NCBI GenBank assembly: GCA_036925085.1
Contig: JAUPFP010000067.1
Coordinates: 186,001-250,000, forward strand
DNA length: 64,000 bases
Source: Brachycybe producta
Taxonomy: Eukaryota > Arthropoda > Diplopoda > Playtdesmida > Andrognathidae
Reading direction: 5' to 3'
Part shown: positions 171-56,330 of the stretch, in pieces
Layout: each line of letters opens with the position of its first letter
How positions within the stretch are numbered: the first letter of the stretch is position 1
Notes under the pieces: generated by a model
What the model was told of the DNA's origin: nothing
Database searches by the model: none
Seen by the model: the letters and a program-made list of their open reading frames with translations, nothing else
Position numbers and translations under genes: made by a program

Positions 171-1442
171 TCTCTGGTTCAGCTAAGCATTTATCGAGTT
201 CAACTTGAATGATAGCCAGTTCAGATCAAGCCCAGCTCAATTCGTGTCAGTTTTTTTCTAGTTTTACAAAGTTCCATGTCCAGTTTAACTGTTAGTAGTT
301 TCTGCAAACACTTTAGCATTTATTCAACCAATAAAATATCCTATACATATCTGAATCTTTTTCTAATGCTTCAATGATTGCTAATTTGCTACAAATACAA
401 AACAGGCCAAAATATAAAGATCTTTCTTTGATATAAAAAAAAACAACAACCTCAACACGCAATTCTTTGAAATGCTCCATTGACCACATTGAAAGTTATT
501 GGATTCTTCTGAATCTGATATCAAAAACAACTGGCCCCCCTTTTCTTTTGCAAGAAGAACAAAAAGGAGGCCACATGTGAGCTTTCTTCCCTGAGACAGA
601 TAGAGATTAACAGCAGGTGTTGAATGAGAAAGAGGCGACAGCTTAAAAACTTCAGTTGGCTGGCTGGCCACAACAACAGAAGGTCCTCATCATCCTCATT
701 CAAAGTTCATGAACCCTCTAAACTAGAAAGGCCAGACGTTATAATAGCTGACTATATAGGATAGAGAATGAATTGAGGGAGACCTGATGGTGATGGTGGT
801 ACCCATGTAACCCCCCCCCCCTTTCTATTCCCTATTTTTGCACCTTATGCATTTAACATCATTGGCTACTATTTAGCCCTTTTATTGAAAAAAATATAGG
901 CCTATATATACATTTTTATATTTAGCAACTAAACTAACCGAATAAAAGGTTTAAACTAAACAAAAGGTTAAATACTGACAAAAGCAAAGAATAAAAATCT
1001 GTTGTTGCCAAATTATATCAAACATCTGGATGACGTGTGTGTGTCATGAAGTGACGTCAGCCACGTACGGTTTAAACCTCATATTATACAGTTATGATTA
1101 TCATAGGAAAGGGGGGGGGAATTGAAAAAAAAAGGACAACTGTCATATTTACTGACATGCGAAATGTCAAAATTCACAATAGGCTATTAATGGACAAAAA
1201 TCACGATATGATTGGCTTTTAAATAGTCAGCTTTTTAAGGATATACACAGATGCTCAGAATATTAAAATTGAATATTAAATAAATATAACCCCCCCCCTC
1301 TCTATAAATATGAAGTTCCAGATTTGAGTAACTGAAAAGTGAAAAAAACAAAACACAACAAGTCCTTTATCTTGACAGACCCTCCCCCCCCCTCTCAGGG
1401 CCCTGGGAGGGTCCACATTTTGGTCTAAAAGGTGTATTTGTG
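171..1442. other. Non-coding AT-rich block
   Basis: No gene signal seen. Short frames around 381-703 lack splice support and are low in complexity. A poly(C) run is near 820 and an isolated TGACGTCA near 1,052. Confidence 0.6.
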
Positions 1443-1650
1443 ACAGGCAATTAGAAATCGGAGAGAACTTAAGTTGGCTCCGCCCATATTATGACGACCG
1501 GCAATTTCTAATTGGTTTGTTATGTGGTTCGACGTTGAAAAGGGCGGAGCATGTGACGTCAGACTACATAACCAACCAATTAGAAGTTGCCGGTCGTCAT
1601 AACAAAGGGCGGAACCAACTGAAGTTCTCTCCGATTTCTAACTGTCTGTT
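1443..1650. mobile_element. MITE family A, copy 1
   Basis: Ends in ACAGGCAATTAGAAATCGG and the reverse complement of a slightly diverged version. A nested inner inverted repeat (CTTCTAATTGG / CCAATTAGAAG), GC boxes (CTCCGCC, GGGCGGAG) and a TGACGTCA are present. No protein is encoded. Confidence 0.9.
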
Positions 1651-1849
1651 ATTTGTAAGGTCGGAGTTGAGCAATTTAAAATGAGAAAATTATATACCAA
1701 AAATTATTCTTGTCAACTTTGTGTCCAAAAAATATATAAATTTTTATCAAAAAATGCAATAAAAAGTTCATTTTAAAATATATTATCAGCATGAAAACAT
1801 ACTTTTAAGTTAAGCAGTTAATTACTCTTACTAGTTTCAAAAACACCTT

Positions 1850-2157
1850 TATACGTTGTACACACATGAGTTAAATGAATTCCAAATTAAATGTGTTTAG
1901 GTGAATTTATACGGAATCCAGTTAAGGACATGAACACCAAATAAAAATTGACTTTAATTATTAATATTTTAAATTGAAATACTAAATCAATATTTTAATG
2001 TCAATAGTTTATATAAATTATATTTAAGTATTAACTCCATATTTTCAAGATTATTAACTGAATAAATTGAATTCGACATATTGGTTGTTTGTCCTTCACA
2101 GGGCTCTGTAGAACACGTTTATTGCATTTAAATTATCACGTGTGTACTAGGTATTAG
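1850..2157 (+). mobile_element. MITE family C, copy 1
   Basis: About 305 bp, AT-rich. One end holds a CATGAGTTAAATGAATTC-like block. The other reads GGGCTCTGTAGAACACGTTT followed by a TTTAAATTATCA block. Five other copies occur at 30.4, 32.9, 45.7, 46.0 and 61.7 kb. Confidence 0.85.
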
Positions 2158-2460
2158 GGAGTCAAAACTCTTGGCGTCCTTATGACTTCATTAACCTCTC
2201 GTATTCACTATGTGAAGATCACTAGTGTTAATATTATTGTATCCCTTTGAGAAGACCATTCAGAAAAAAAGGGTAGATTTAAAGGAAGGTGGCGTGGGTG
2301 TAGAAGAGGAGGAGGAGGTTTGTTCCCAATTTCAGAAACCGTTTACCTGAACGTTTCATGCAGAAAATACCTTTTGCCAATACAATTGACACGCTAGGAA
2401 ACATTTAAATTCGTATTCCCCCCACCCCTTACTGACCACCAACCCAACTAATGTACCATG

Positions 2461-2628
2461 TTACAGTCAATCTGCGGAATCAGTCAATCTGCAGATTGCC
2501 AAGGCAATATGCAAAATTCAATACAGTTTAGGGGTGTTGAATTTTGCAGATTCAATAGCAGTTTGGTGGTCTTGCAGATTCCCTAAGGCAATCTACAGAT
2601 TGACTGATTCCACAGATTGACATTATAT
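2461..2628. mobile_element. MITE family E, copy 1
   Basis: Terminal inverted repeats of about 40 bp containing GGAATCAGTCAATCTGCAGA at one end and its near complement at the other. The interior is about 90 bp. Confidence 0.85.
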
Positions 2629-2639
2629 AGCAAAATATA

Positions 2640-3780: not shown

Positions 3781-3787
3781 GGCTTTT

Positions 3788-3789
<2 letters not shown>

Positions 3790-3861
<72 letters not shown>
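3790..3861. repeat. (TA)n microsatellite
   Basis: About 35 TA units directly abutting the left end of a family E MITE. Frames reading Tyr-Ile across it are spurious. Confidence 0.95.
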
Positions 3862-3864
<3 letters not shown>

Positions 3865-4072: not shown

Positions 4073-4079
4073 AACCATA

Positions 4080-5640: not shown

Positions 5641-5689
5641 TCTTATTCAAATTTTGCACCGTTTGTATAGCGGTTACTAAAAATTTTGG

Positions 5690-6672: not shown

Positions 6673-9600
6673 GTAAGTTAATTCACCTTCCTCCTCCTCC
6701 TCCTCCTCCACCCAGTCCCGTCCAGTCCAGTCCCTTCTCCCCCCCCCCCCTTTCACTCTCCCAACACAACAGAACAGAAAAAAATAACCAAACAAATAGT
6801 CTCAACCAATGACTATCTTTAGAAATGGCAGGTGTTTATCATCATCATCATCACGCAAAAAGAATTCAACTGAGAAAAAAACAATGAAGAATTTTGACCA
6901 AAAAAAAAATATATATAAATTCATATTATTAAGGTCATTGATTGAATGACATTTTTTATTCTACTTACAAAAAAAAAACCGAAATTCCTGACAGGCTAAA
7001 AGGGACCCCATTTTTCGCGCCAAAATTTATCAAGCTTTTGAGGTTTCATTACTATAAGCCTCAGATTTTTATGAAATATCTAACAAATGTTTCTCAATCT
7101 TTGGTTTAACAGCCAAATCTCGTTTAGATCAACCAACAATTACGGTTTTTTTTAAATCAAAAACACTGGTTAGAGGCTAAAATTCTTGTTGATAACTGAT
7201 AGTAACTATAGACATCTAGCCTCTAACCAGCCTTTATTGATTAGAAAAAGCATAATTGTAGTTGTGATGATGATGATTATGATTTACTTCACAATTGGCA
7301 CTTGGGGCCACAAATTGAGAAACATCTGCTTGAAATCTGCATAAAAATCCGAGCTCTACACATTACAGGCAAAATAAATCATACTGTACACCAGTCATAA
7401 AAATATGATACACTTATGACAGGAATTTGTCATTTAATATGCTTTTTTTGTGATTGTTAAGTCGGGTATTTTACCAAAAGAGCGAGCAAGAGCAAACATA
7501 CTCCTTAAAAATGCTCACAATTGCGTCCATATACCGGAGCGAATATAGTTCTTGTTCGCAGTTGATCCACCGTTTACAGCGAGCATTCTCGAACTCATAA
7601 TTTGCACAAGCATTTCAACAATACACCTTGCACACTAAACAAGCACAAATAAGTATTTTCTTTGATGTATCGCCATCTGCCCGATCGTTTTTTTTTTAAC
7701 ACGAGCGAGCGAATGTTTGCTTGCCTCGCTAACCGGTACTTCACCAGACACCTGAAGGAGAATGCTCGCTCGCTATTGCTCGCTCTTTTCGTATACTAGT
7801 ATACTAATTATCAACATGAAACTACCATTAAGCGATTCAAATTTTTACTCTTCTAGTTTCTAAAACGTTCAAAGTTTTTCTGATGCAAACCCCGATTAAA
7901 AAACCGATCCAAAACCTCTCTCGTTTGTCAGTTACGACAACCAAATTCAAAAATCTAAAAACATTTCCTTTTAAAAAAAAATTTCAGAAACCGCAAAAGA
8001 GCTCCAAGGATTCGTCAGAATTTCAAGACACAAACGCAGATGTTTTCACAGTCGATCTTCGTAGTTTCTTCAACCGTAAGTACCAAAAAAAAAATACAAT
8101 AATCTCTTAATTAAATCAAAAAACGTTGACAATTTTATGTTTTTCTTTTATAAAAGCCGTAACTCATCATCGAATACGTCATCACGGTAAAATCCGCGAA
8201 GAACTCGAAGAAGTCAAATCTGCTCTTAAGGCCGTCTACAAACGCCAGACACTAATGGAAGCTCAGCTCCGCAAGACCCGACATAACCATAGCGTGATTG
8301 CCAGTGACGTTCATCACCTACGAGGCCGTATCGGAGATCTACTTAACAACACCCGCTTTAAAGTAGCTCACGAAGCGTCTGTAGATCGTTCCATAAACGA
8401 ACTCCGAGCAGATATGTCCACGTTGGTGCGAGCCGTATCGCAGAACACGAGAGCTCTCGGTAATCTGTCGGAATCCGTGACCGGCATCGACAAATTACAT
8501 TCGTCGACCGTTCAACTCTTCGAAGCATTGGAAGGCCTCGAAGACGAATACGGACAACGCATCGGAGACCTCCAAAAGGAAGTATCCAAATACGAATTCA
8601 ACATGGCTCAACTTTCGTCGTCGGTCGCCATTCTAAAAGAAGACGAAAGTAACCACTACAACGCCATCAAAACCATGAGATCCGATGTGTCGGCACTCCG
8701 TCAGGAATCCGACAACGCAAAGTATAAGATGGCCGCATTACGAAGTGAGATTCTTAGCGAAGAAGCTCAAAAAATCATACAATTGGCCAACGCGAAACAA
8801 GAAACTTCGTTAAATAATGGAGAACCCATTGATGATGTCAATGGTGTCATTCTACATTTGGAAACGGCAGTGGCACGTCTCGATGCACGGCTCATCGAAC
8901 AGAGTCACGTTATTAACGAGACTGCCGAGAAATTAAATCATAAAGCCGATTTGGAACATGCTGCACATTGGGCCACGAGTGCCGACATGCTCGACGACAA
9001 AATAACGACAGTGGCCAAGAAGATGGAACTTCTCGAAAGTCGAATGACGAGAGAGGAAGAAGGTCTCAACAGCGTCTATCGTCAATTTCCAAACGGTAAA
9101 GTATTTCTCGTAAAAAAAAATCCAACAGTCAAGAAGAAGAAACTAACCGTTCGTTAAATTTAAACAGATTGCAGTTCGATGCACGGTAAGCCATCCGGAG
9201 TTTACCAGATCTTTCCAGTGGGTTCAGAGTCACCGTTAACGGTCTTTTGCGACATGGAAACCGAAGGCGGTGGCTGGACAACCGTACAACGTCATCAAGA
9301 CAACGACATTGACTTCAACCGTGATTGGACTGACTACAAACATGGTTTCGGTCAAGTGTCTTCAGATGGACATTCAAACAATGGTAATTTCTGGCTTGGT
9401 AACGATAACTTACATCGCTTGACTACCGCAGCCGATCATCCGATGGTCGTTCGCTTTGACCTCTGGGATAAAGACGGTCGATATCGCTACGCACAATACG
9501 AAACGTTTAGCATCGACGACGAAGCACGGCTTTACCGCCTTCATGTCGGAAATCAATTCAGCGGTAACATCAGCGACGCATTGCATTATCACGACGGCAT

Positions 9601-9814
9601 GCAGTTCAGTACTCGTGATGCCGATCACGATGGAAGCAGCCTTCAGTGCGCAAAACAATACGAAGGTGGCTGGTGGTACGATCACTGCCAACACGTCAAC
9701 GTTAACGGACAATATAACATTGGTTTGGCATGGTACGACGTGGACAACAATTCTTGGGTCGAGTTATCGAGAGTTGAAATGAAAATCAGGCCTTCGAAAG
9801 ACTTTCGACGATAG
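6571..9814 (+). CDS. Coiled-coil protein with C-terminal fibrinogen-related domain, 5' incomplete, four exons
   Basis: Exons 6571-6672, 7988-8075, 8157-9095 and 9168-9814 join in phase (0, 0, 1, 1) and give about 590 residues ending at a TAG. The first two exons encode a polar, proline- and serine-rich stretch. The third encodes about 310 residues of heptad-like coiled coil. The fourth is a complete fibrinogen-related domain (FReD) of about 215 residues. No signal peptide or membrane segment is seen, so the true first exon(s) lie upstream and were not found. FReD proteins with a coiled coil are usually secreted or type II membrane oligomers that bind sugars or receptors (ficolin, angiopoietin, FIBCD1, insect Scabrous). 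The long coiled coil before the FReD would suit a Scabrous-like or angiopoietin-like protein, but I cannot choose between them. The domain call is secure; the ligand and role are unknown. A gap of about 5.2 kb separates it from the convergent TBC1D2 exon 16. Confidence 0.88.
7056..7357. mobile_element. MITE family B, copy 1
   Basis: Ends resemble GCTCGGATTTTTATGCA and its complement. The internal GGTTAGAGGCTA / TAGCCTCTAACC inverted repeat and the (ATG)n-like spot are retained. Confidence 0.8.
7478..7795. mobile_element. Inverted-repeat element built on GAGCGAGC
   Basis: Imperfect arms: AAAGAGCGAGCAAGAGCAAA on the left and TATTGCTCGCTCTTTT on the right, with additional GAGCGAGCG motifs inside. 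It is single copy in this window and lies between the first two visible exons of the fibrinogen gene. Confidence 0.55.
7988..8075 (+). CDS. Fibrinogen-domain gene, second visible exon
   Basis: The acceptor TTTCAG is followed by 88 bp and a GTAAGT donor. It encodes 29 residues including FTVDLRSFFN and leaves one base to be completed by the coiled-coil exon. The intron after it is only 81 bp. Confidence 0.7.
8157..9095 (+). CDS. Fibrinogen-domain gene, coiled-coil exon
   Basis: This 939-bp exon is far richer in G+C and CpG than its surroundings and is open throughout. It encodes about 313 residues with regular spacing of Leu, Val, Ile and Ala (for example IREELEEVKSALKAV), typical of a parallel coiled-coil rod. 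Possible N-glycosylation sites (NNT, NLS, NET) are present, which would suit an extracellular protein. It ends at a GTAAAG donor in phase 1. Confidence 0.88.
9168..9814 (+). CDS. Fibrinogen-related domain, terminal exon
   Basis: The exon opens with the DCSS motif that usually starts a FReD. FCDMETEGGGWTTVQR, FWLGNDNLHRLT and the late GGWWYDHC block follow in the family order, and all are hallmark segments. Acidic residues before the late cysteine (DADHDG) occupy the position of the FReD calcium site. Four cysteines lie at the expected places for two disulfides. The frame ends at TAG with no truncation. An antisense frame in this exon is a shadow. Confidence 0.93.
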
Positions 9815-10834: not shown

Positions 10835-12150
10835 ATAAGTAGCTACTTTATTACAAAATATGTAAATAAATGAAGAACAAAATTTGGAACTAGAATATCT
10901 AATTATTCTGCATTTTAGGAAGTAACATGAAGAAGTTTTTTCTTAGAAACTAGAAGAGTACTTGAGTAAATAAATCACTTATAAGAGGGAATTTTCAGGT
11001 TAGGAAATTTTAAGTTTAAGTTTTAATGGCAAATTTACATTAAAATCATGTTTTTCGTTTTTCACTTCAAGCTGGACAACAAAAAAACCCCCTAAAAATT
11101 TCAAATTTTATTTTCAAAATACCATAAAAAAGTTTATTTTAAAAGATATCTTTGTGGGATTCAAGTTAATCTAATTTAGTTTCTAAAACATTTTCAACTT
11201 TTTTAACTTAAAAAGTTAATTTTCAAAACGCAGAATAACCAAATTTCATAATATTTTCGGGTTTATTTCACCATTTCGAGGTTCACCACAACCTGAAAAC
11301 CCCTCATAAAAATCATATAAAAACACGCCATTGTGGCTTTTATCGAATGGAAGGGGCTTTTTGGCCCTTCACCTCAACATAATCAATATACTGCCACAAA
11401 GAAACAAAAAAAAACCAATAGTGCCAATAAATCACCAAATAAAATGCTAAGTTTTGCATATTTCCCCCGACACCCCCCCCCCCCCCCCCCCCACCACCAC
11501 AAAAGTGCCTTAGACATTTTCGAAAACATGGACACCTTAACCACCTTTTGTTTATTGTAGTTATTAATTATGAATAGAAAATATTTGTTACGAGCCAATT
11601 TTACTGGGAAAAAAAATCTTGTCAAATATTGTCAGATACTTTAAATTTTCTTTTATATATAAAATATCAAAGAGTAAAACAAATTCCCCCCTAAAATATT
11701 TGAATTGTTTTATATTATATTAAAAAAATCCCCCCCCCCAACCAAAAAAATATATATATCTTAAATGGAACCTACTTAAAAAAAATTAATCCTTCTCTAG
11801 TCGACTTTATATTTGAAAATTATATAATTAATTAAAACAAATAATTATTTCTTCTTCTTTTCTATTATTAGATATTCTTAACAATTATTAAGGTTTCGAC
11901 CAAACGACATTTACCATAGCTGTATTAAGACCCCCCGCTGTTATGCTACGTTATAAATTGCAAGACATTTGAGGATTTTATAAAGTTTTAGTTGCTTGGC
12001 TTTTTTTTAAATTAAGAGCCTAGATACAGTGTTTAATTCAAAATTTCTCCGAAAGTAGACGCTGCGATCGTTTTTGGTATAAAAATGTTTTTTTGTCAAT
12101 AAGTATGACGTCACATACAAATTTATAGAAAAATAACTGCACGTGCTAAG
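10835..12150. other. Non-coding block with a long poly(C) run
   Basis: No gene seen. About 22 consecutive C at 11,468-11,492 and further C runs near 11,730. Scattered fragments resemble family D (TTTCTAAAACA, AAGTTTATTTT). Confidence 0.55.
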
Positions 12151-12156
12151 CTTATA

Positions 12157-12545
12157 AAAAGCAATCAGCGTGATGCCTATGCATCAATGCACGTGCTAAT
12201 TAATTTGTTAATTGTTCTAAATCATTTTTAACGAGAGTTCTTCAAATTTTTGTGAGACGGTTTTTTTGGGTCTATGAGATTTAACATGAAGTTTAAAAAA
12301 TGTGATATTTTAAACATTATTTAAAAATAGAAATACCTTTTCAAAATTTATATAAAGCAATCAGCGTGAAGCCAACACGTCAATGCACGTGCTAATTTTG
12401 TTGTTATTGCTCTAAATCATTTTTAACGAGAATTCTTCAAACTTTTGTTGAAGGGCTTTTTGGGTCTATGGGATTTAACATGGGAATTATAAAAAAATGT
12501 ACGATTATTACGATTATACATTATTTAAAAATAGAAGGACCTTTT
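12157..12545. repeat. Two-copy direct repeat, about 195-bp unit
   Basis: Copy 1 (about 12,157-12,345) and copy 2 (about 12,353-12,545) share AAAGCAATCAGCGTG, CAATGCACGTGCTAA, TCTAAATCATTTTTAACGAG and TTGGGTCTATG in order. Confidence 0.85.
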
Positions 12546-35900: not shown

Positions 35901-38900
35901 GGTGGCTGAATAGATATTTCTGTTTTTATCTCCACCTTGAATGTCTCCACTGCAGTGGCTCTATGCTAAGTTCTATAGATGTTTTTTTGGGAAAATTTAA
36001 ACGCAAAAACGTCAAGCGAACGTTTTTTTTTTTTAGAAAACAACATTATGAAGAAAAAAATCAAATTGTTGTCAAAACTAGAATGGTAAAAGTTTTTTCA
36101 TTGCAATATCTTAACAAATAAACAGTTTATATTAGTTTGAAATTTAGGTTTTTTCATTGAAAATTTCATGAAAAACTATATTCGCTTTTTTTTTCAAACT
36201 GCCATAAAAAGTTTATTTTGAAAGATATCATCATTGAAAAAACTTCCAACTATTCTAGTTTCTAAAACACTTCGAATTTTTATCGTAATTTGTTTCTGCT
36301 AAAAAAACGTTTGCTTGAAAATATAAATTTTCTTCTCAAAAACCGCGTGTCAGAGAGAACATGACAGCCACACAGGCGCGCCATCCGGAGGAACAAAAAA
36401 AATATCTATTCAGCCACCTTAAATGATTTATTTACTCTTCTAGTCTTTGAAACACTTTCAAGTCTCTTCAATGTTTGCTTCTAAAAGAATTCCTATTTCC
36501 TATTTATGATTATGTTCTGTAATTAGGGTCCCTGGATTCTTGAACTGCTTGAACAAGAAAAGTCTCAAGGCCCCAAATTCAAGAAATACAACTTGACACT
36601 TGAACTTTCAACTCTTGAACCCTCTGAGGAAGTTTTCAATATAGAAAAACCACAGGCAGTTAGAAATAGGAGAGAACTTCAGTTGGCTCCGCCCTTGTTA
36701 TGATGACGAGCAACTTCTAATTGGCTGGTTATGAAGTCTGACGTCACATGCTCCGCCCTTTTCAACGTCAGACTACATAACCAGCCAATTAGAAATTGCC
36801 AGTCGTCATAACAAACGCGGAGCCACCTGAAGTTTCGACCTATTTCTAACTGCCTGTAGAAAAACCTTATTTTCTATGTTAAACCCTTTTTTGAGGTAAC
36901 CTCGTTTGAGCTTTTTCAGTTCTCGTCAGAGGCGTAGCTGGAGACTTGCGAGGTCGCCACTAGAGGGCGCAACCAAACCTATCTATCCCATTGGTTCTCG
37001 TGCAATGAACTTCCATTGACGTTGCATTGTTATAAACAACAGGAAGTCCAGTTTACATTAGCATAACTTTTAAATCGGATATTGCTAATCGGAAATGAAG
37101 ACATTGTTGTCTTGAAAACTTCACTGAGAATTTATTGCACCCGAAAATATCGGAAGCACTCTGACTGCTACCGAATCGCATAAAAAATTTCCTTTTTTTT
37201 CTTCTTAACATTGTTAGTAGTTTATGTCTATTGATTTCATTCTGTTTACTCCTCTAGTTATTATCGTAGTTTTTTCTTCTAAAATGTTCAAAGCTGTTCT
37301 TGTGTCTTCTTCCAATATGGCTGTGCTTTTGACATTCTAGTTTATAGTGTTGTGATGATGCAGTTTAAAGCTCTCTTCTCTTTATTCAATTCATTGCTTT
37401 CAATCAACTTGCTTTATTTACTGTAAAAAAAGTCTAGAAAGACAATCATCACAGTTTCTCTGCTAACAATAATTGTGTACATTCAGCCAGGGTTGAAATA
37501 GGAAACTCTTCTTCTAGTGAACGAATTAAGGTTAAGATCACACATGCAGAAAGAAGAAAAAAACTTCAAACTGAAAAAGAAATTTATCTATTTTTGAATA
37601 AATACGCACATTTCTATGTGTTTGGCTGAAACCACAGAAGAAAAAAAAAACAAGCCAATAAGAAAGCGTCCTTTATACAAAACATTCTTTATAGCTCCTC
37701 CTCATTTGAGACAAACTGAATAAGCACCAAACTGAACAAATGCCAAACTGAATAAGCGCCAATTTAAACAAACTGAATAAGTGCCAAACTGAATAAGCAC
37801 CAAACTGAACAAACGCCAAACTGAATAAGCGCCAAACTGCACAAATGCTAAAATAAGCGCTAAATTGAACAAACAACAAACTAAATAAGCGCCAAACTGA
37901 ATAAGCCTCACACTGAACAAGCGCCAAATTGAACAAATGCCAAACTGACTAAGCACCAAACTGAACAAACGCCAAACTGAATAAGCGCCAATTTGAACAA
38001 ACTGAATAAGTGCCAAACTGAATAAGCACCGAACTGAACAAGCACTAAACTGAAGAAACACCAAACTGAATAAGCGCCAAATTGCACAAACGCTAAACTA
38101 AATAAGTGCTAAATTGAACAAACAACAAACTAAAAAAGCGCCAAACTGAATAAGCCTCACGCTGAACAAGCGCCAAATTGAACAAATGTTAAACTGAATA
38201 AGAAACAAACTGAATAAGAACCAATTTGAACAAACACCACACTGAATAAGTGCCAATTTCAACAAACTAAATAAGCGCCAAACTGAATAAGTGCCAAATT
38301 GAACAAGCACTAAATTGAACAAACGCCAAACTGAATAAGCGCCAAATTTTTGGCTTTTATTGTTTGGCGTTTGTTCCAATTGGCACTTATTCAGCACCAA
38401 GCCTCTTAAACTTGATTCTGAATTTCTATTTTCTGCTCGTTTTTACTCATACGATGTATGTGGGGATCTTTATTGTTCTTTTAAAACAATGAATAAACTT
38501 TGATAAAAACCAAATAGGAGGAGGGGAGTATGGAACATTTTTCAGCGTGTGTGGGGACGGAATGTGGAAATATATGTGCGGCGTGGGGTGAGGATGGATG
38601 TTTTGTCTTTTTTTCTGCCAGCGGGTGGTCTGTGCGAGGGTATTTTTTTTTCTCCTGTAATAACTTCTCCACGAGTTATTTCATTTTAAATAAATGTTAC
38701 TGGAAATTCTTGGTTAGAATTCTGGATTTTCATTTAAAAACTTCAAGAAAAACTTTAAATCGGGTTTTTTTTTTTTTTGCTTCGAAACTAGAAGAGAAAT
38801 CGAATTACGAAAAGAGATTTTTCATGTCGATAAATAACACTTCAAAAATAAACATTTATAGTATTTTGAAGAAAAAAAATATATAAATTTGAGATTTCTT

Positions 38901-41900
38901 AAGAAAATAAAACTCCTAAATCAAGAATTTCAAAATATCATAAAAATAAACTAAAAATTTATATATTATATTATATATATAATATCCCAGGTCTGTGTGT
39001 GTGTGTGGAGTAACAAAAACCATTGAAGCACGTCGGAATTTATATAAATTTGAATAAATGAACCGTTGTTGAACTCATGTTGAACTCTTCCTTTGGAAAG
39101 TGTAGAAGGGGGGGGGGGGAGAAAAGTGGGAGGGGGTGAGGGGAAAAGTTTGGAAAGTGTAGAAGGGAAAGAGAGAGAGAAAAGTGGGAGGAGGTGACTG
39201 AAATTGAAATGAAAGGAGTAAAAAAAGAACACACGACGCGCATGCGCACACCACAGAAAATTAAAAACTCATTTTCTCTTTCAAATATAAAAAGGGGAGG
39301 GGATAATAATAGCAAAATTAAACTACAGTTTATCACAGGCAATTGTGCCCAGCATTAGAATTTCTTTTGCTCAGCCCTTTTATGAACGTCATCAATTTCT
39401 AATTGGGTTTGTTACTTGGTCTGACGTCATAAAAGGGCGGTGGAAAAGAAATTCTAATGCTGGGTACAATTGCCTGTGAATTTTGCTCCCGTCATTTATG
39501 ACGGGTTACCCTACGAGTACTTAAATGATTCATTTATCCTTTCTAGTTTCTAAATGTTAAATAGCAACGCAAACTTCAAGATGTTGCTGCTTGTCGAGAG
39601 GGAAAACTGTGCAGAAAACAGGCAATTAGAAAACGAGATAAACAGACGTTGGCTCCGCCCTTTTATGATGAAAGGCAACTTCTAATTGGTTTGTTGGGTG
39701 GTTCGACGTTGAAAAGGGCGGAGCATGTGACGTAAGACTACACAACAAACCAACTAGAAGCTGCCGGTCGTCACAAAAGGGGCGGAGCAAACGTCTGCTT
39801 GTCCCGTTTTCTAATTGCTTGTAACTCTTCAAGACAAAAATGTCCAAAAGATAATTTCTTGGCAAACATTCAGACGTCAAATTACAGAAATTACAGACAA
39901 ATCTTTATGACAGAAAATCAATTCTTCCGTTTGTTCTGTTTTGATTCTTATTAAATCTTGAATTGTAGCTTTCAGTGTGATGAACTGGACTCAACCCACA
40001 TAAAAATATGAAAATGGAAGAAAACAATCCCCACAGGCAATTAGAATTCGGGACGAACTTCAGTTGGCTCCGCCTTTTGTATAAAGACCGGCAACTTCTA
40101 ATTGGTTTGTTGTGTGGTTCGACGTTGAAAAGGGTGGAGGTTGTGACGTCAGACTACATAACCAACCAATTAGAAGTTGCCGGTCGTCATAAAAAGGGCG
40201 GAGCCAACTGAAGTTCGTCCCGATTTCTAATTGCCTGTACAATCCACTAGAACTATCTATGGTTGTTCTGCATCTTTAGTAGACAGTCAATTAGAAAACG
40301 GGACAAACAGAAGTTGGCTCCGCCCTTGTTATGACGACCGGCAACTTCTAATTGGCTGGTTATGTAGTCTGGCGTCACATGCTCCGCCCTTTTCAACGTC
40401 GAACCTCACAACAAACCAATTAGAAGTTGCCAGTCGTCATAAAAGGGGCGGAGCCAACTTCTGTTTGTCCTGATTTCTAATTGCCTGTCTTCAGTAGAGA
40501 CATTACCAGTATAAAACCGGTCTGCCAATTACTGGAATTGATAGAACCGGTTCTGATCAACTACTTAAATCTTGGTTTATTGAGTGGTTCGACGTTGAAA
40601 AGGGCGGAGTATGTGACGTCAGAATACATAACCAGCCAATTAGAAGTTGCCGGTCGTCATAACAAGGGCGGAGCCAACTGAAGTTCTGACCGATTTCTAA
40701 CTGCCTGTAGAGGCTAGAACACTAGTTGGCATGGCAACTGATAGTAACCCGGCATCTGTAGCCTCTAACCGACCATTTTGCACAGAAATAAGCATATAAT
40801 TGTATTTGCTCTAATGATGATGACGATAAGAATTTACTTCACACTTGGCACTTGGGCCACAAATTGAGAAACATTTGCTTTTGATATTTGCATAAAAATC
40901 CGAACCCTAATGATAAACTTTTTTATATTAAATTTTATTAATTCTTCTTCTTGAAACCCCCTGTTCAGAGGTTTCAAGTTGAAGTTCAAGTGCCAAGTTT
41001 TCTTCTTTACTTGAAATGACCTCCTTTTTTTTTTCATACTCCACCCCATTAACAAGAAGAACCCCATTTAAGTGAATGAAAAACGAGTTCTGTTTACACG
41101 AAAAGAAGAGTAATGATGATGATGATGATGATGAATTGGTTTAACCTAATATTTAACACTTGAATGAATAAATAATAATAAAAAAAATCCGATTTTATGC
41201 TGGACACAAACAGAGAGACAGACAGACAGACATCTGTTAGATGAACTCGTTTTAGTAATCTCAATTAAGACGAGACAGACAGACACATTTAAAAAAGGAA
41301 ATTAATTTACAAATAGAAAATTAAGTCTGCTTCTCATTTGCAGAAACAGCAAATCAATAAACTGATAATAATATTTAGGCCGCGCCAAAATTGAAATAAA
41401 AATTTGTGACGTATTTTAACCAACTATTAACCAACGAAACGTGGTGATTGGCCTTAATTTTAGTTGATGCTCCAATTAATGAAGGCACATTTTATATTTT
41501 CTGTCCATAAAAGCTTTGTCGCAGTCGTTTGCCCCGCCCCCTTTTATGAGGACCGACAACTTCTAATTGGTTTGTTATGTGGTTTGACGTCACATGTCCA
41601 GCCCTTTTCAATTTCCAATTGGTTGATATTTGGTCTGACGTTCCTAAAAGGGCGGGGCAAACGACTGTATCTCTCTGTCTTTACATGCCTGTATCGCACA
41701 CTACATCGGATCGGATCGGAACCCTAATGGAAATATTTTGATGACAAAGCATTTCAATAGAGCTTGCCGCCGCATCCGATCGAAGCAAGTGTGGCGGGAG
41801 GTCCATTGAAATGCTTTGTTATCAAAATATTGTGATTCGTTCCCGTTTAGAGATGTCAATTACTGGAACTGATAGAACCGGCTCGCCAGTATAGGTCGAA

Positions 41901-44900
41901 CTGATAAGAACTGTAATATGTAAGGAGAGAAGCACACACAAGCGCTGAAAAACCACCAGAAAATAAAAATAGAAATGGAAATGGAAAATTCTGTGTTCCT
42001 TTCTACTGAAGGATATTATGGCGCTTCTGTTAAATTCGTTAGAAAATCCATACAATTTTATTATGTGTGAATTTTTCCCCAACGCTTAAAAAAAAACAGA
42101 AATGCAGCTGAATCAGAAACGTCGGTTATTAGAACCGTCGGTTATCGGAACCGTCGAATATTATTACTGAGTTGAATTATCGGAACCGTCGAATATTATT
42201 ACTGAGTTGAATTATCGGAACCGTCGGTTATCGGAACCGTCAATTATCGGAACCGTCAATTATCGGAACCGTCGGGTATCGGAACTGTCGAATATTATTA
42301 CCGAGTTGAATTATCTGAACCGTCGGTTATCGAAACCGTCAATTATCGGAACCGTCGGTTATCGAAACCGTCAATTATCGGAACCGTCGGTTATTATTAC
42401 TGAGTTGAATTATCGGAACCGTCGGTTACCGGAACCGGAACCGTCGGTTATAGAAACCGTCAATTATCGGAACCGTCGGTTATCGAAACCGTCAATTATC
42501 GGAACCGTCGGGTATCGGAACCGTCGTATATTATTACTGAGTTGAATTATCGGAACCGTCGGTTATCGGAACCGTCGGTTATCGGAACCGTCGGTTATCG
42601 AAACCGTCAATTATCGGAACCGTCGGGTATCGGAACCGTCGTATATTATTACTGAGTTGAATTATCGGAACCGTCGGTTATCGGAACCGTCGGTTATCGG
42701 AACCGTCGGTTATCGAAACCGTCAATTATCGAAACCGTCGGTTATTATTACTGAGTTGAATTATCGGAACCGTCGGTTACCGGAACCGGAACCGTCGGTT
42801 ATAGAAACCGTCGGTTATCGAAACCGTCAATTATCGGAACCGGAACCGTCGGTTATCAGAACCGTCGATTATTATTACTGAGTTGAATTATCGGAACCGT
42901 CGGTTATCGAAACTATTATTTTATTTACTTGTTCTTATGGAAATAAAAAAAATTTCTTTGCAACCGGTTTTTTCTTACTTTTCTCCACTTTTTTTTAATT
43001 GGAGATCGATTATATGAACTTTCGATTATCGAAACAATGCATGTCCGACAATAGTTCCGACAATCGACGTTCTTAAAGCTGTATCTGGAATTCTGCTGAC
43101 GTTATTTACTCATGAGTAAATATGTTTAGATGACAATTTTCTTCTATTTATTTTTTTCATTTGTGAAAATGCCAACAATGAAGAAATCTCAAATGTTCAA
43201 ATAACATCAATATTTGGTTGAAAAGATAAAAATATCCGAAATGACAATAAAACTCCCCCCCCCCCCTCTCTCTCTCTCTGGGTTTCCATGGTTAAGTTAA
43301 ACGCGTAACAATTCCATCTAAAATAGTTCTGTTTTTTAAGATTTTGAAAAGTATTTTTGGCTAAATTTCATTTGAAAAGCATTTCCTCCTTTCATAAATA
43401 TAATTAGCATCATTTTAAGCAAATTTTCACACCTTTTTTTAAAGCTGTTTTTAAAAGTGCAAAACGCCCCCCTCGAATACGTGACAAAATGAATAGAAAC
43501 TTCAACGTGTTTTAAGAAAGTAGAAGGGTAAGATCAATCACTTAATAGTATCTTCAGGGTTGACAAACCGATAGAAAAAATTTATTTTGAAAGATATCTT
43601 TAAAAATAAACTTTTTATGTCAGTTTGAAATATTGTTGTCTATAAAATGTTTATTTTGAAAGATATTAGGCATAAAAAATAGTAAGGGCCAGTAAGCTGT
43701 CATTCTAGTATTTTAACACACTTCCAATGCCTCCTTAGGCCTTGTTTCCATTGGGTCAAAAATTTTCGACTTGTAAAAATTTCAACTGTCGAAAAAATAA
43801 CAAGTGTTTCCTATGGAGAAGTGAGTCTAATGCGCATGTCTATTAGCTGGCCTAATATAACATCACCAATAGGAGAAAAGCCATTCAATAAAACGCCCTC
43901 AATTCCAACAAACCACAAATATTCGCCAGAAAGAGGTTGAAAAAAGTTGAAATTGATTCAACTTTTGTTGAAATCTTCTTTTTGGTGAACATTTGTACTT
44001 TTTGCGGTTTATTGAGCCACCATCTTTCTTTTCTCGTCGTTTTTGATGGCTGTTTTTTCATCGATTTTTCTTTAATTTCTCATCATTTCAGGTAAATTAA
44101 TGTATTTTAATTAGTTGTAGAATATATTTAACTACAGTTTTACAGTAAAATAACACCGTTTTCGATGTAAACATTGATGAGAAACGGCAAATTTATGGTT
44201 TAGTTAAAGTGGTAGAGCGAATGTGGTTTTCTCACTTCAATTGGCCTAACATAATGAACCAAACCATAATAGTGAATAAGCGGGGACCCCGTTTGTTCTG
44301 TTATTAGTCACGCTGTATCGAATTTCTTTTCTCCTCCTAATAGAAATTGCATTAACACATTTTCACCATAGGAAACACTTATTTTTCAACAGGAAACAAG
44401 GCCTAAGTGTTTTTTTTTTCTGAAACTGCAGATTAAACAGAGTTTAAAATCAGCTGTTCACAAAACATCTAAAGGTGGTTTTAAAGTTTCAATGCGCCTC
44501 TGGAACTCTTGGTTATTCTGTCTCTCAGAAGCAAAATGATAATAAACTTGTATGTGTTTTAGAAACTAGAAGTGGTAGCACAATCACTTGGTGTGTTCCC
44601 TTTCGGTCGACATTTTTTCGGTCGACAGGCCTCAGGGATTGGATTGGAGGCTAACAGTGACGTCAATAAAAAGTAATAGGGAGCGGTGAGGAGCGAAATA
44701 GTTAGGTTCGGTTCGGATAGGGTTTAGGTTAGGTTAGGGAGAAAGGGTTATATTTTTTGGTAGCTCTTTCATTCACCGCTCCCTATTACGTTTTATTGAC
44801 GTCACTGTTAGCCTCCAATCCAATCCCTGAGGCTTGTCGACCGAAAGGGATCACTTTAAGGGTATTTTCATGTTGATATCTTTCAAAATAAGCTTTTTTT

Positions 44901-48449: not shown

Positions 48450-49070
48450 GATGATGTTGATGATAATTATAATTAATTATAACTAATTAACTCCCAGAGT
48501 AGTGATAACATTATCATCATCATCATCATCAATATAAAAATATATTTAAAGTTCTCTCGGGGTTTTTTGCATCCGTACGTAGAAAACACATCCACTCACA
48601 CCGTGTCACGTCACACAACACTTGCAAAAGTGACGAAAGATATCTGTAACAGACACAAAACAGAAGAGAGAAAAAAATATCACTAGAGACAAATTTTTTT
48701 TTAAAATGAAAAAAAATTGGGGAGGGGAAGAGGAGGGGTCACACACACTCACACCACCCACTCTCACTTTCATGATGGAGTTCGTGACGTCACATATGGT
48801 CTCTCTCTCTCTCGTAAAGAGATCAATGAATTCAACTGAAGAGAAGAAGAAGAAAAAAACCAATCATTGAACGCGCTCCACTTTTTTTTTTTATTTCGTA
48901 GAAACGAGGGCGGATTTTTCGTTCTTTTTCGTTCGTTTTTTTCAGTTCGGTTAAACGTAGCAGTCGATTATTACAATGCTCTGGCTAACTATCCTATAAA
49001 CCTATATATTGAATGCCGCTTCACACGAGACACTTGAGTGTCGCCACTTTGTGAAATCACACAGTGGTAG
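48450..49070 (-). promoter_or_regulatory. 5' flank of TBC1D2, probable promoter region
   Basis: Upstream of the ATG at 48449. It has an ATCATCATC repeat just upstream, a CGTGACGTCACAT (CRE) at about 48,783 and a TC-rich tract next to it. No TATA box was assigned. The transcription start is not known. Confidence 0.4.
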
Positions 49071-49073
49071 AGT

Positions 49074-49507
49074 ACAGGCATTTAGAAATCGGGACGAACA
49101 CAAGTTGGCTCCGCCCTTTTTTATGACGACCGGCAACTTCTAATTGGTTTGTTGTGTAGTTCGACGTTGAAAAGAGGCGGAGCATGTGACGTCAGACTAC
49201 ATAACCAACCAATTAGAAGTTGCCGTTCGTCATAAAAAGGGCGGAGCCAACTTTTAATTGGTTTGTTGTGTGGTTCCACGTTGAAAAGGGCGGAGCATGT
49301 GACGTTAGACTACATAACCAACCAATTAGAAGTTGCCGTTCGTCATAAAAAGGGCGGAGCCAACTTTTAATTGGTTTGTTGTGTGGTTCCACGTTGAAAA
49401 GGGCGGAGCATGTGACGTTAGACTACATAACCAACCAATTAGAAGTTGCCGGTCGTCATAAAGATGGCGGAGCAAACTTCTGTTCGTCCCGATTTCTAAT
49501 TGCCTGT
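49074..49507. mobile_element. MITE family A composite with tandemly amplified core, copy 10
   Basis: One pair of A ends (ACAGGCATTTAGAAATCGG ... CTAATTGCCTGT) encloses three copies of the inner core. The second and third are near-identical 111-bp tandem units sharing GTGGTTCCACGTTGAAAAGG and TGACGTTAG. Confidence 0.9.
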
Positions 49508-49514
49508 CAATAAT

Positions 49515-50600
49515 ACTTAGGAAGGAATTTTGTGCTTTAGAAACTAGAAGGGCAGCTCAATAACTTAAGGGTATTTCCATATTACAGTAATCTTTTTTTG
49601 TAAAATAAAACACAAAAATATTAAAGAAAAATACGATCTGCTTAAAAGTTGGATCATTTTCAAACTCAGATAAAAAGTTTATTTTGAAAAATATCAACGT
49701 AATACATGGTGTCGCCCTTAGACTAAAAAAGCTTGTGACGTCATAGGAATTGTACAAAAATTTAGGGTTGCGTGATTGACAGGCATCTCTGCCCAGCAGT
49801 AAAATTTTGTTTGCCTCGCCCCTTTTACGAGCGTCATCAATTTCTAATTGGTTTGTTACTTGGCCTGAGATCACATGCTCCGCCCTTTTCAATTTCTAAT
49901 TGGTTGATATTTGGCGTGACGCTCATAAAAGGGCGGGGCAAACAACATTTTACTGCTGGGCAGAGATGCCTGTGTGTGAATTTATCTAATACACTTATAA
50001 AAAAGGGCTAATAACTAGGGCTGGCAAAATTTTCGATATATCGATATTTTTTAAATTCGTACTCGATATATAGAAAAATCGGAAAAATCGAAAAAAATCG
50101 AGAAAATCGATGACATCGAAAAAATTAAAAAAAATCGAAAAAAAAAAAAACTAAAAAAAATCGAAAAATATTGAAAAAAATCGAAAAAAAAATTGAAAAA
50201 AAATAAAAATATTGAAATATTCAACAAAAAAAATATCGAAATAACACAAAATATGAAAAAAATGTTTGAATAGACCTAGGAAACGTTACTTCATGCATAA
50301 TAAGATTGGTATTTACTATTTAGTAATTCAAGTTTTACAATATTTCAATTTTTAAGAATTTTTCGATTCTTCTTCATTTTTTCGATATAATATCGATAAA
50401 AATGACACAAATCCTAAAGTTTTTTTTGACAATTCCTCTGACGTCACAAACTTCGTCTAAGGGCGATACAAGTATATAAAAAAATACGCTAAAGTGATAG
50501 AGCTACCCTTCTAGTTTCTAAAACACATTCCAGTTTCTCTGCATTTTGCATCAGAAAGATAGAATAATCAAGTGTTCCGAGAGCTCTTTTTTTTTACAGG
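49515..50600. mobile_element. Family D copy interrupted by family H element, which holds a family A variant
   Basis: D arms at 49,515-49,708 and 50,475-50,600. H arms TCGCCCTTAGACTAAAAAAG / complement near 50,450-50,474, each with TGACGTCA. Inside H: A variant 49,779-49,973 and an AAAAATCGAAAA-rich tract at 50,020-50,420. Confidence 0.75.
49779..49973. mobile_element. MITE family A variant, copy 11
   Basis: Ends ACAGGCATCTCTGCCCAGCA and complement, with CCCCTTTTACGAGCG and AAAAGGGCGGGGC inner arms. Confidence 0.88.
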
Positions 50601-51115
50601 TAGGTTTTCAGGACTGCGAGAAGAATATATGAAAAACACCTGATTGTCAAAAGACTAGAAGTGTAATTTTGTTAACAAGTAGGCGTGGCTCAAATCCTCA
50701 TCTAAATAATTCTAATTTAAATAATCATTTGCAAACAAGCCGTGTGTATCGAAAAAGCTCGACAAACGTTTTTTTATTCCACCCTATTTTCTATCATTGA
50801 AGTTATTGTATTTTTCCAATATATGGCAACCCACGCTCAATCATATCTAATATATAGACTTCAATATCAATATCCGCTTATGACGTCACTAACAGCCGCA
50901 CATGTTCTCTCTTCAAAAGTACTAATCCCATTCACATACATACAAACACCCAGACATACATACCACTAACACAGACATGAATGAATGGCTAAAGAAGCGC
51001 CACCTACTGACTGAATTAGTTAAAATAAACGTGGCTTACCTACTAAAACAAATGGGTTAACAAACATTGGCTCGCGAGCCAATTCAATACAGGTCTGCTT
51101 GCCTCATTGCAAAAA

Positions 51116-51285
51116 AAAAAAAGTCTTGTGACGTCAGAAGGGATCAAAGCAAACGTTTCTCAACAATTTAAAACAAAAGGGTTTTTGTATTCTTTCGTTA
51201 TTGTCCCCTTTTTTATCAGATAAATTAGCACAATTATAATTTTTTTCGTCAACCCCTCTGACGTCATAAGCTTATTCTTACGATT
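51116..51285. mobile_element. Family H short copy
   Basis: Arms TTGTGACGTCAGAAGGGAT and GTCAACCCCTCTGACGTCAT around about 100 bp. Confidence 0.7.
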
Positions 51286-51295
51286 AAATGACCAA

Positions 51296-51352: not shown

Positions 51353-51368
51353 GTTATTTCTGCGTTTC

Positions 51369-52419: not shown

Positions 52420-53035
52420 TTTTCTGTGTCTGTGTCTAGGTCTCTTGTGTCGCGTCTCAACATATAAAGATATGTTGTGTGTGTCTTGTCTCTTTGTGAA
52501 TGTTTGGATCTGTCTTTACTGACTGACACTGTGTCGTTTGCGTCTTTCGCTGTGTCTCTGTATGTCTCATGTTTGTCTCTGTGTCGCTCTGGTTGTCTCA
52601 TATATTCTCTGTGTTGTCGTTCTGTCTCAGTTTTATGTGTCCGTCTCTTATCTCTGTATTTTATGTGTTTGATGTGTTGCTCTTATCTGTTTCGTATAGT
52701 TTCCTCACCGTAAGAGGAAGTTTGTGACGTCAGAAGGGTTGCCAAGCTATTAAAGCTTATGTCAGTTTGTCAGTTAAAAATAGGGGAATAATAACAAAAG
52801 AATGCAAAAACTCTTTGTTTAAATTGTTGAGAACATTTGATTATCATTATTTTTTTAAAAAAAAAACAGACTAAACGACACAATCCTTTTGTCAACCCCT
52901 CTGACGTCACAAGCTTCATTTTACAGTGTTGTCGATCTGTCTCTGTTTTGTTTGACTTTCACTTTTGTCTCTCTCTGTCTCTGCGTGTCTCTTGTTTGTT
53001 CTTGTGTCTCTGTGTCGCTCTGTCATGTTTGCTTG
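52420..53035. repeat. TCTCTGTG-rich low-complexity tracts around a family H copy
   Basis: Degenerate TGTCTCTGTGTC repeats at 52,420-52,640 and 52,925-53,035. Between them are TTTGTGACGTCAGAAGGGTT (52,720) and CAACCCCTCTGACGTCACAA (52,893), the arms of a family H element at 52,710-52,925. Confidence 0.75.
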
Positions 53036-53249
53036 CGCGTGCGCATTTGCGTAGAAAGTGCATTGACCCAAACATAACCAAATAGACACTGATTTTCACC
53101 CCCCCCCCCCCAAAAAAAAGATGTAAAAACTCATTTTTTTTTCTCCTCCCTAATTTTAACCCTCTCTATACACAATACATGTATCACGTGCGACATCCAC
53201 CTGTTCTCTCCTCCTATTCCACCTGGGCGACGCAAACCCCTCCCCTTCC

Positions 53250-53456
53250 ACAGGCATTTAGAAATCGGAACAAACAGAAGTTGGCTCCGCCCTTTTTTAT
53301 GACGAACGGCAACTTCTAATTGGTTGGTTATGTAGTCTGACGTCACATGCTCCGCCCTTTTCAATGTCGAACCACACAACAAACCAATTAGAAGTTGCAG
53401 GTCGTCATAAAAAGGGCGGAGCTAACTTCTGTTTGTCCCGATTTCTAAATGCCTGT
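53250..53456. mobile_element. MITE family A, copy 12
   Basis: Full 207-bp element with TGACGTCACATGC. The flanks do not show a clear duplication. Confidence 0.92.
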
Positions 53457-53534
53457 CTCCCGGGATCCCTCCTCTCCAGCACCCTCTGTCGTTAAACTCT
53501 TAAAGAAACAGAAAAGGATGATGATGATGATATT

Positions 53535-53562
53535 TACAAAGGTCTGTCTGTCTGTCTGTCTG
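53535..53562. repeat. (GTCT)n microsatellite
   Basis: Five to six GTCT units preceded by a (GAT)n run. Confidence 0.9.
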
Positions 53563-54101
53563 TGCGTGTGTTTGTATTCAATCAAAAGTAAACATTAAAA
53601 TCCTCTTTTTTTCCAATTGTCAACTTAATTAAAATGGTATTAAAACGATACAAAAATAGAATGAATACTAGAAATGCTTTTTTCCACATCTGCTTCCGCC
53701 AAAGTGAGAAGAAGAAAAAAAGTTAATTTTCAAAATCACTAGTCAATCTATAAAACTGTCAATGTGTGTACATTTGAACCTTTTAGAAAAATGGCGCAGA
53801 TCTTTTTTTTTTTTAAAAAAACTTGCTAATTTAAACTGGATTCATGCGTCAGGCATTCTGCATATTGTCTAAAAAATAAAGTAAAAAACGTGAAGTTATA
53901 TAGTGAGATTGATATGAGTGTTGTAGCTTGCCTAGTCATTGTGTTTATTGACTGCCAAACTTAAGATAACGCCAATGCTAACGCAGAAAACGCTTTAAAA
54001 AAATTTTACCCTTATACCAGATTTTGCAAATTGTCTAGTGATTGTACGAAATGACTTGATTCTCCAAATAAACCATTTGTAACTTATACATATAAAATGC
54101 C

Positions 54102-54279
54102 AGGTTTAGACCATGAAGTTAATGAAAGTTAAGGTAAGGGCGTTTTCTACTGCGCATGTGCATTTTTCAAAATGCAACAAATGAAGTAAGATTCTTCAGC
54201 GACTGCATTCTGCACATGCGCAGTAGAAAACGACTTTACTTTAATTGGCATTAACTTCACGGTCTGAGTCTGAACCATG
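54102..54279. mobile_element. Inverted-repeat element with CTACTGCGCATG arms
   Basis: Arms of about 60 bp: TTTTCTACTGCGCATGTGCA and complement, outer TTTAGACCATGAAGTTAATG. The TGCGCATG core resembles an NRF1-type motif, which may be chance. Confidence 0.75.
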
Positions 54280-54344
54280 GATTTTCATTTTTACAAAAAA
54301 GACCAACTTAAAAAAAATTCTGCTAAAAGTGAATGAACTTAAGA

Positions 54345-54560
54345 AGGGCCAGGTCCCACATGCAGATAATGCCAACAGGAAAATAGAATTTATCTTATTT
54401 GAAACACAACGTTTTAACAAATTCAGCTTTTTTTTTTTTCAGCATACTTTCTACCAAATAAATAGAATTACAATTATTTAAATTACATAATATTCCGTTT
54501 TCAGTCGCATTTTCAGCTTTCATTTTCCTGCATGTGGAATCGTGGCATAAGAAAAGAATC
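54345..54560. mobile_element. Family I inverted-repeat element
   Basis: CACATGCAGATAATGCCAAC at the left and TTTTCCTGCATGTGGAATCG at the right. Partial relatives at 4.9, 37.5 and 54.83 kb. Confidence 0.65.
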
Positions 54561-55829
54561 ACAAACGCACTGAATAAAATTCCACTTTCTAAGGAATTTA
54601 CCAGATTTATTATCTTTGAACGCAAATTTCTAATTCTGTTTTCTGATGATTTTTCAGCGTGTGTGATTCTTCCCCTAGGCAAAAGGGGAAGAAAAAAACC
54701 CACACATGCTGAAAAACCAACAGTAATTGGAATATCTCTAATGAATCCATGATGCTTTTTGCTTCTTGTAAATTCCTTACAAATTGAAAATTCTGTGGAA
54801 ATTTAAAAATTCAGCATGTGTGATTCTTCCCTAAGATGCTACACAATGCAGAAAACACCAACTGAAAAACTGAATTTATCTAATTTTATACAGAAATGTA
54901 GTAACAAATTTAGCTGGGTTTTTTGTTGTTGTTGTTGTTGTTGTTGTTCTCCCTATTACAATTATTTAATCTCCTTAAAGAGTTTTATCAGAGAAACTAT
55001 TTTAACAAAAAAAAATAAGATAAAATACGTACACAAATTAGATGATTTTTCCATTAAAAGAATTCTCAAGCCTTTTTTTTTACACCTTAAAATTAGAAAA
55101 CACTTTCTTAAAAACACTTTTAAGAAGAAAAAAATGAATCCTCCCCCCAAAAAAAGTTGTTTTTTTAAAAAGTTTTTAGAAGTTTTGTTTTTCCTTCAGA
55201 CATTCTAATAAAACACGTCGTCTAGAATTGAAGTCCCTGGATGCAGGTAGCAGCAAAGCCCATAAATGCAATTGCAATAATAATAATAATAAAAGGATTC
55301 CAAAGATACTCTCTCTCTCTCCCTCTCTCTATCTCTCATAACTAACACAAACAAACATACAAACAATTGTCAATAATTTCCATCTCTCTATCTATTCCCC
55401 ATAGACACAACATGAGAAAGATAGAGAGACAGAGAGATAAAAGACACACACAGCTGCAAAGTATTCAAAGAAAAAAACACACACACAATACACTGAAAAG
55501 ACACGCCCCCTTTCCTCCCCTCCCCCCTCTCTCTCTCTTTTTTTTAATCGTCATCGTCATCATTTGATTGACATACAAACAATTGCTAAAACTCCGCCCA
55601 CTTCTCTTTTTTTTTCAGATCTTGTACATTATTATACATTGAAATCATCGTCATCATCACTCTTGAGTCATTGGTCAAAAGACGTATGACGTCACATACA
55701 AGAAGCTTCGTCATTTTATCATCGCCCTCCTCCTCCTCCTCCTCCTCCACGTGAACGGCTTGAGTAATAATTTAAAAATCTTTCTAACGGCGGCGGCGAT
55801 TCTGCGCCGATCAGCTGTTTTGTGGTGTT

Positions 55830-56330
55830 GATTATTCTGTCTTTTCAGATAAGAGCAAAATTAAAGAGAAACTTAAATGTGTTTTAAAAAACTAGAAGGG
55901 TAACTTAATCACTTAATAGTATTTTCATGTTGACATCTTTCAAAATAAACTTTTTATAGACCAAAAAAAAGCTTATTTTAAAAGATAACAACATGGAAAT
56001 ATCTTTAAGTAATTGAGCTACCCTTCTAGTTTCTAAAACATATTCAAGTTTCTCTTCCTTTTGCATCTGAAAGACAGAATAAACACACGCAATTAGAAAT
56101 CGGGACAAACAGAAGTTGGCTCCGCCCTTTTTATGACGCCCGGCAACTTCTAATTGGTTTGTTGTGTGGTTCGACGTTGAAAAAGGCGGAGCATGTGACG
56201 TCACACGACATAACCAACCAATTAGAAGTTGCCGGTCGTCATAAAAAGGGCGGAGCCAACTTCTGTTTGTCCCGATTTCTAATTGCATGTGAATAAACCA
56301 TCCTAAGCATCTTTCTAAAGAAAACGAAGC
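55830..56330. mobile_element. Family D copy split by family A copy 13
   Basis: D arms at 55,830-56,084. The D tail resumes at 56,291 after the A element. Confidence 0.85.
56085..56290. mobile_element. MITE family A, copy 13, with target duplication
   Basis: Ends ACACGCAATTAGAAATCGGG and complement, between perfect GAATAAAC repeats (56077-56084, 56291-56298). Inserted in the tail of a family D element. Confidence 0.94.

Follow-up and report, generated by a model that had tools for sequence, protein, structure and literature searches.

Copies of a CREB/ATF binding word in a millipede genome lie in three families of miniature inverted-repeat elements and in a separate set of sites

The palindrome TGACGTCA is the classic binding site of CREB/ATF regulators, the cAMP response element (CRE). 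Why is this word so frequent in a 64,000-nucleotide stretch of the genome of the millipede Brachycybe producta (positions 186,001 to 250,000 of contig JAUPFP010000067.1, assembly GCA_036925085.1; hereafter, the window), and is it being spread by the miniature inverted-repeat transposable elements (MITEs) in which many of its copies lie? We found that the excess has two sources: copying within three MITE families (A, E, and H) and a separate set of sites outside these families that have the flanks RTGACGTCAY (R is a purine and Y is a pyrimidine). In both arms of one of the families, H, the best-kept 8-mer is the CRE.

The window contains 23 exact copies of TGACGTCA. Shuffled sequence gives an expectation of 0.45, and none of 100 shuffles had as many, so the over-representation that an original prediction had noticed in this stretch is borne out. 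All 19 of the sites that it placed correspond to real ones (at most 8 bp off); those at 12106, 29056, 39422, and 50881 were additional. Across the genome (295.3 Mb in 442 contigs), there are 35,739 copies, which is 4.9-fold more than for a control, the reversed word (7,349 copies), and about 12-fold more than a dinucleotide expectation of about 3,000. (This expectation was scaled from 1.78 sites per 175,000 bases in 18 sampled 10-kb pieces, each of which begins at base 100,001 of a contig.) There are 137,102 words within one mismatch of TGACGTCA, and its 24 neighbors average about 4,220 copies each, or 8.5-fold fewer than TGACGTCA itself. The window is denser in the word than the genome is (23 versus about 7.7 per 64 kb).

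In the window, 17 of the 23 sites are within the three families (nine in A, six in H, and two in E). The other six compare to an expectation of 0.48. In the 18 sampled pieces, 12 of 26 sites are within the families and 14 are outside, where 1.74 are expected, so the excess is not the effect of a single MITE. The original prediction had called for such a count, genome-wide and with MITEs set aside, and both the full count and the masked sample agree with it. Its statement that most copies sit in families A and H or in an element at 44.6 kb (our family E) is right for the window but is incomplete, as about half of the sampled sites lie elsewhere and belong to another class of flanks. It had also placed a CRE in the 5' flank of a TBC1D2 gene, which we did not confirm: there are TBC-like exon pieces on the minus strand at about 15.6–15.8 kb, as judged by eye only.

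Family A has 206 columns and is nearly palindromic, with the ends ACAGGC...GCCTGT and a single CRE at column 112. The window holds copies on the plus strand at 1443–1649 (CRE at 1554–1561), 40033–40238 (40144–40151; used as the query), 40558–40708 (40614–40621), 49074–49252 (49187–49194), and 56085–56289 (56196–56203), copies on the minus strand at 36652–36857 (36739–36746) and 53250–53456 (53338–53345), a fragment at 39366–39444 (39422–39429), and a diverged copy at 41527–41692 (41585–41592). A 9-bp target-site duplication is exact for 6 of 20 copies and has at most one mismatch for 10 of 20; three other copies repeat exactly 8 bp. Four family A copies stand in a row in another locus (L014, 4085–5042), and three of these are about 256 bp apart and very similar.

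Family E (293 columns) has a CRE in both of its inverted arms, at columns 69 and 219. The window's element is at 44590–44853 on the plus strand (CREs at 44658–44665 and 44797–44804), and its relatives have an 8-bp duplication, which is exact for 8 of 12 copies and within one mismatch for 10 of 12. Family H spans 240 columns; its arms, judged by eye, are about 75 bases long, its CREs are at columns 31 and 203, and its ends are TATAGTTGCC...GGCAACTATA. Its copies in the window are two elements with two CREs each, at 51097–51286 (51129–51136 and 51259–51266) and at 52695–52936 on the plus strand (52725–52732 and 52902–52909), and single arms at 49717–49777 (49736–49743) and 50385–50475 (50439–50446). 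All five copies of H that reach both ends are flanked by TA, which is weak evidence because matching ends were a condition for selecting them. A 9-bp duplication points to the Mutator-like superfamily, to which A may belong, and the TA ends of H would link it to the Tc1/mariner type.

We consider all three to be MITEs: each is shorter than 600 bp, has inverted matches to its query, and has 40 scored places on many contigs. (The searches gave 1,957 first-look candidates for A, 1,074 for H, and 375 for E, and 40 were scored per search.) Leaving aside the copies in the window, the scored places are 93–95% identical to the window's copy for A, 88–95% for E, and just 72–79% for H, which makes H the oldest of the three. 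Unselected copies of A average 87% identity to their consensus. A stretch of 12 bases (TGTGACGTCAGA) is common to A and H and is absent from E. Overall, the difference in duplications (9 bp, 8 bp, and, less certainly, TA) upholds the claim that unrelated MITE families carry the CRE. Another idea, that the elements prefer to insert into TGACGTCA, was rejected because the word is inside the elements at fixed positions and the duplications are other sequences.

The bases that flank the palindrome tell the two populations apart. There are 12,385 instances of RTGACGTCAY in the genome (reversed control, 2,926), or 21 times the roughly 590 expected by scaling. The opposite arrangement, YTGACGTCAR, has 1,681 instances (reversed control, 2,427), which is 1.8 times the roughly 930 expected. 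The remaining 21,673 sites have a purine on both sides or a pyrimidine on both sides (RR/YY) and are at 15 times their expectation of about 1,480. The 12-mer TCTGACGTCACA occurs 10,281 times (5,182 + 5,099), and its reversed control occurs 17 times. We also took a census of 158 sites in 317,414 bases; this is not a random sample, as many of the loci were chosen because they contain TGACGTCA, and it leaves out overlapping loci (L002, L005, and L007) and loci taken as family copies. Of the 61 sites within A, H, or E, 57 are RR/YY and four are RY, while the 97 sites outside include 63 RY, 25 RR/YY, and nine YR. In genomes of this kind, a motif count thus lumps the copies borne by transposons with other sites, and the flank class largely separates the two. 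Near base 201 of two loci (L162 and L163), YTGACGTCAR lies in what appears by eye to be a piece of a retrotransposon's reverse transcriptase, which may explain some of the YR sites.

All six of the window's sites outside the families are on the plus strand, and four are RY. Three of these (48785–48792, 50881–50888, and 55687–55694) have no other copy among 40 scored candidates. The fourth, at 12106–12113, belongs to another repeat, with matches from about 12012 onward and 39 other scored places at 82–90% identity. Within this repeat (12012–12545) there is a periodicity of about 195 bp, and a few contigs, such as C1 and C32, carry many of the 40 places scored. The other two sites have RR (1052–1059) or YY (29056–29063) flanks.

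The surroundings of the 63 RY sites in the census, some of which overlap each other, differ from the background in several ways. Their observed-to-expected ratio for CpG is 1.02 versus 0.84, CACGTG occurs at 0.49 versus 0.15 per kb, and TTACGTCA/TGACGTAA occurs at 0.33 versus 0.03 per kb. The differences are small for CCGGAA (0.27 versus 0.18) and for an NRF1-like pattern (also 0.27 versus 0.18). The RY sites are also clustered: among the first 100 places on contig C1, 13 of the 99 successive gaps are 80 bp or less, as compared to 0.7 expected, and four of these 13 belong to one five-site array. When 14 RY flanks were searched jointly, three had other copies, the window site at 12106 among them, and 11 matched only themselves (among the 40 of 1,022 candidates that were scored). 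Related flanks with a CRE also form other small groups (L037/L039; L012/L161/L165; and L136/L154), so more CRE-bearing repeats are likely.

How unusual is it for one word to be shared by three families? We linked identical 8-mers through repeat alignments in 264 kb of sequence (the window and loci L009 to L028). (Grouping by chained 50-bp bins had put all contexts of TGACGTCA into one block, because adjacent insertions chain together, and was dropped since it could not separate the families.) TGACGTCA is in four repeat contexts, namely A, E, and the two arms of H, which were counted apart. If expectation is ignored, 259 of the 7,098 8-mers found in repeats reach four contexts. Among the 12,397 canonical 8-mers whose expectation is at most 1.5 times that of TGACGTCA, the only words in at least four contexts are TGACGTCA and CCCCCCCC, which is a simple run, and 12 words (these two included) reach at least three. 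The sharing of TGACGTCA by several families is rare, yet it was noticed before its rarity was assessed. Other words in three or more contexts include some that resemble other promoter or insulator motifs. For example, AGATGGCG, which resembles a CTCF-type core, is in three separate repeat contexts (window 3460, 14409, and 28708; L010 1231; L014 8646 and 9747) and is possibly a second binding word carried by repeats. In another repeat, CACATGCGCAGTAG or a close variant, which is NRF1-like (CATGCGCA), is present as an inverted pair spaced by about 65 bp (window 54151 and 54215; L025 9575 and 9640).

We also asked whether the CRE is better kept than its surroundings. With a first H query (43 hits at 41 loci), the left CRE was intact in 34 of 41 copies and the right CRE in 37 of 43. 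The median 8-mer was intact in 27% of copies; outside the CREs, the best-kept window reached 25 of 41. Because this query held both CREs, the set may be biased, so we used an inner query of 122 bases that includes the inner parts of the arms but leaves a gap of about 21 bases to the CRE on either side. It gave 20 new copies among the first 24 places listed; the other four had been obtained before. In these 20 copies, the CREs were intact in 11 and 14, the best other window was intact in 11, and the 110 windows that lie beyond the query had a median of 20%. Mismatches per cell were 0.084 in the CREs versus 0.236 in the other arm columns outside the query. None of 1,369 control pairs of windows were as low as the two CREs, and singly, 0 of 37 windows on the left and 1 of 37 on the right were as low. 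The few H copies in the window and the sample are similar (4 of 4 and 4 of 5 CREs are intact).

We pooled both sets into a tree (57 distinct rows, each with 180 columns or more). It is star-like: the spread of pairwise distances is 0.0290 versus 0.0265 ± 0.0019 after shuffling columns, and internal branches make up 9% of the tree's length. Clustering for subfamilies returned a single large cluster and was uninformative. On terminal branches, there were 15 and 18 changes in the two CREs, as compared to a median of 43, and none of 197 windows were as low. The CpG columns inside the CRE vary less than the six other CpG columns of H (0.062 versus 0.322). These data suggest that the H site resisted change after insertion, with long-lived source lineages as the alternative.

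A comparison of singleton to shared variants in H (21 of 906 singletons and 14 shared in the CREs; 169 of 11,997 and 1,658 elsewhere) had pointed to retention in source lineages only. That conclusion was withdrawn because ordinary columns have about eight changed copies each, so that most variants are shared by chance, and because H is star-like. The same test was not significant for A, where the CRE has 2 of 328 singletons, or for E, where it has 2 of 336. In family A, using the copies in the window and the sample, the CRE is intact in 18 of 28 copies (median window, 46%; rank 31 of 199), and the best-kept words are others, such as CCAATTAG (27 of 28). The original prediction had named a lack of conservation relative to neighboring MITE bases as grounds for giving it up. 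For H, such a lack is contradicted; for A and E, it is not rejected.

The explanation that we prefer, with a probability of about 0.68, joins three parts: a CRE multiplied by MITEs, a set of RY sites that resemble host CREs, and putative binding by basic leucine zipper (bZIP) factors with slowed change in H. At least three MITE families with differing duplications carry the word (in both arms of H and E and near the center of A), and the word was multiplied as they were copied. Host bZIP factors of the CREB/ATF/CREM type would bind the sites in MITEs, which may favor transcription or accessibility of the parent transposons in germ cells. The H site changes about 2.6 to 2.8 times slower than its surroundings, as it would if it were still occupied or useful often enough. 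As for precedent, TGACGTCA is given as the CREB/CREM consensus, and about 622 full CREs are described as occupied in round spermatids of the mouse (PMC3091680, in the passages on these sites); CREM-tau is described as expressed in haploid spermatids of the mouse. By analogy, use by a transposon promoter in the germline is plausible here.

Several points weigh against this explanation. The RY sites outside of the families may be ordinary host CREs, and the basis for this is just their composition and clustering; furthermore, that population is mixed, as at least 3 of 14 of its sites fall in repeats and some others appear by eye to be coding. Nor is the CRE significantly better kept in A or in E, where 28 of 184 and 53 of 245 windows, respectively, have as few changes on terminal branches. 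The unexceptional CREs of A and E, together with the better preservation of CCAATTAG in A (27 of 28 versus 18 of 28), would be expected if the three families contained the word by chance and it hitch-hiked to high copy number without any factor binding it, with H reflecting variation in rate along the element. This account, which we consider unlikely though a serious contender, can also draw on the 259 of 7,098 repeat 8-mers in four contexts when expectation is ignored; at matched expectation, just one other word, a simple run, is in four contexts. It also has to contend with a CRE that is extreme in both arms of H and with the low variation of its CpG columns (0.062 versus 0.322).

The CRE could instead be part of a contact for the transposase or the transposition complex in the inverted arms, in which case source copies would have retained it because it serves mobility and not because it serves host transcription. 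Its position in both arms of H (31 and 203 of 240) and of E (69 and 219 of 293) fits this, as does the above-average preservation of the adjoining arm bases in H. We doubt it nevertheless: most changes in H are on terminal branches of a star-like tree, A has one site near its center and none at its ends, and the differing duplications of A, E, and H would make one shared transposase, and hence a shared contact, unlikely, so that a shared host factor would fit better. Low rates of change on terminal branches would also arise if many H copies had been co-opted as host regulatory elements and kept by selection. We regard this as distinctly improbable, as selection would be needed on a large share of the copies, A and E lack the pattern, and shielding by germline occupancy or evolution in the source phase would yield the same one. 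In a more far-reaching reading, transposons of three or more duplication types would have independently acquired or kept the palindrome, most copies of the oldest family would have maintained it after insertion, and unrelated MITEs would have seeded a genome-wide set of CREB/ATF-responsive sites in parallel. We consider this reading improbable.

The spread of a motif by MITEs is known from two other systems, and the millipede adds a real new case, of which family H is the interesting part. In Brassicaceae, E2F motifs were amplified largely in hAT, PIF/Harbinger, and MULE MITEs (Henaff et al. 2014, as summarized in part of a review, PMC12595863). As in that account, one transcription-factor motif is amplified genome-wide, largely in MITEs of several kinds. 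Unlike the E2F case as described there, the millipede case concerns the CREB/ATF palindrome in an animal genome, the three families account for only about half of the sampled sites, and in one old family the motif is conserved beyond its surroundings; also, E2F binding was tested in Brassicaceae, whereas the millipede case is known from sequence alone. In Caenorhabditis elegans, two related MITE families under regulation by HIM-17, CERP2 and CELE2, are the source of about one third of the germline-specific promoters (PMC9757741, in the parts on these families). There, too, MITEs scattered across the genome carry motifs for a host factor in their inverted repeats, but binding and promoter activity were established by chromatin immunoprecipitation, reporters, and editing, and the factor is related to a transposase, whereas we presume a host factor of the bZIP class. 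The full CREs of mammalian CREB/CREM have the same word, and the passages on them give no transposon source (PMC3091680).

Our searches of open-licence literature gave no report of a CRE carried by MITEs; in the passages covered of one related paper, CREB appears only within a list of predicted sites. The millipede is an animal case, with a textbook regulator, in which several unrelated transposons spread one binding word. Family H, which is star-like and has two internal sites per copy, offers a clean handle on whether sites borne by transposons are shielded, or selected, by host factors.

The window has other features as well. A fibrinogen C-terminal domain (Pfam PF00147, E = 3.5e-59) is at 9164–9811, behind a coiled-coil-like open frame at 8111–9154, and is in keeping with an animal genome. 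A tandem array of more than 30 units of 30 bp is at 19005–20150 and has open frames on both strands. Tandem arrays of 16-bp units are at 37633–38364 and at 42113–42913, and the latter has a higher-order spacing.

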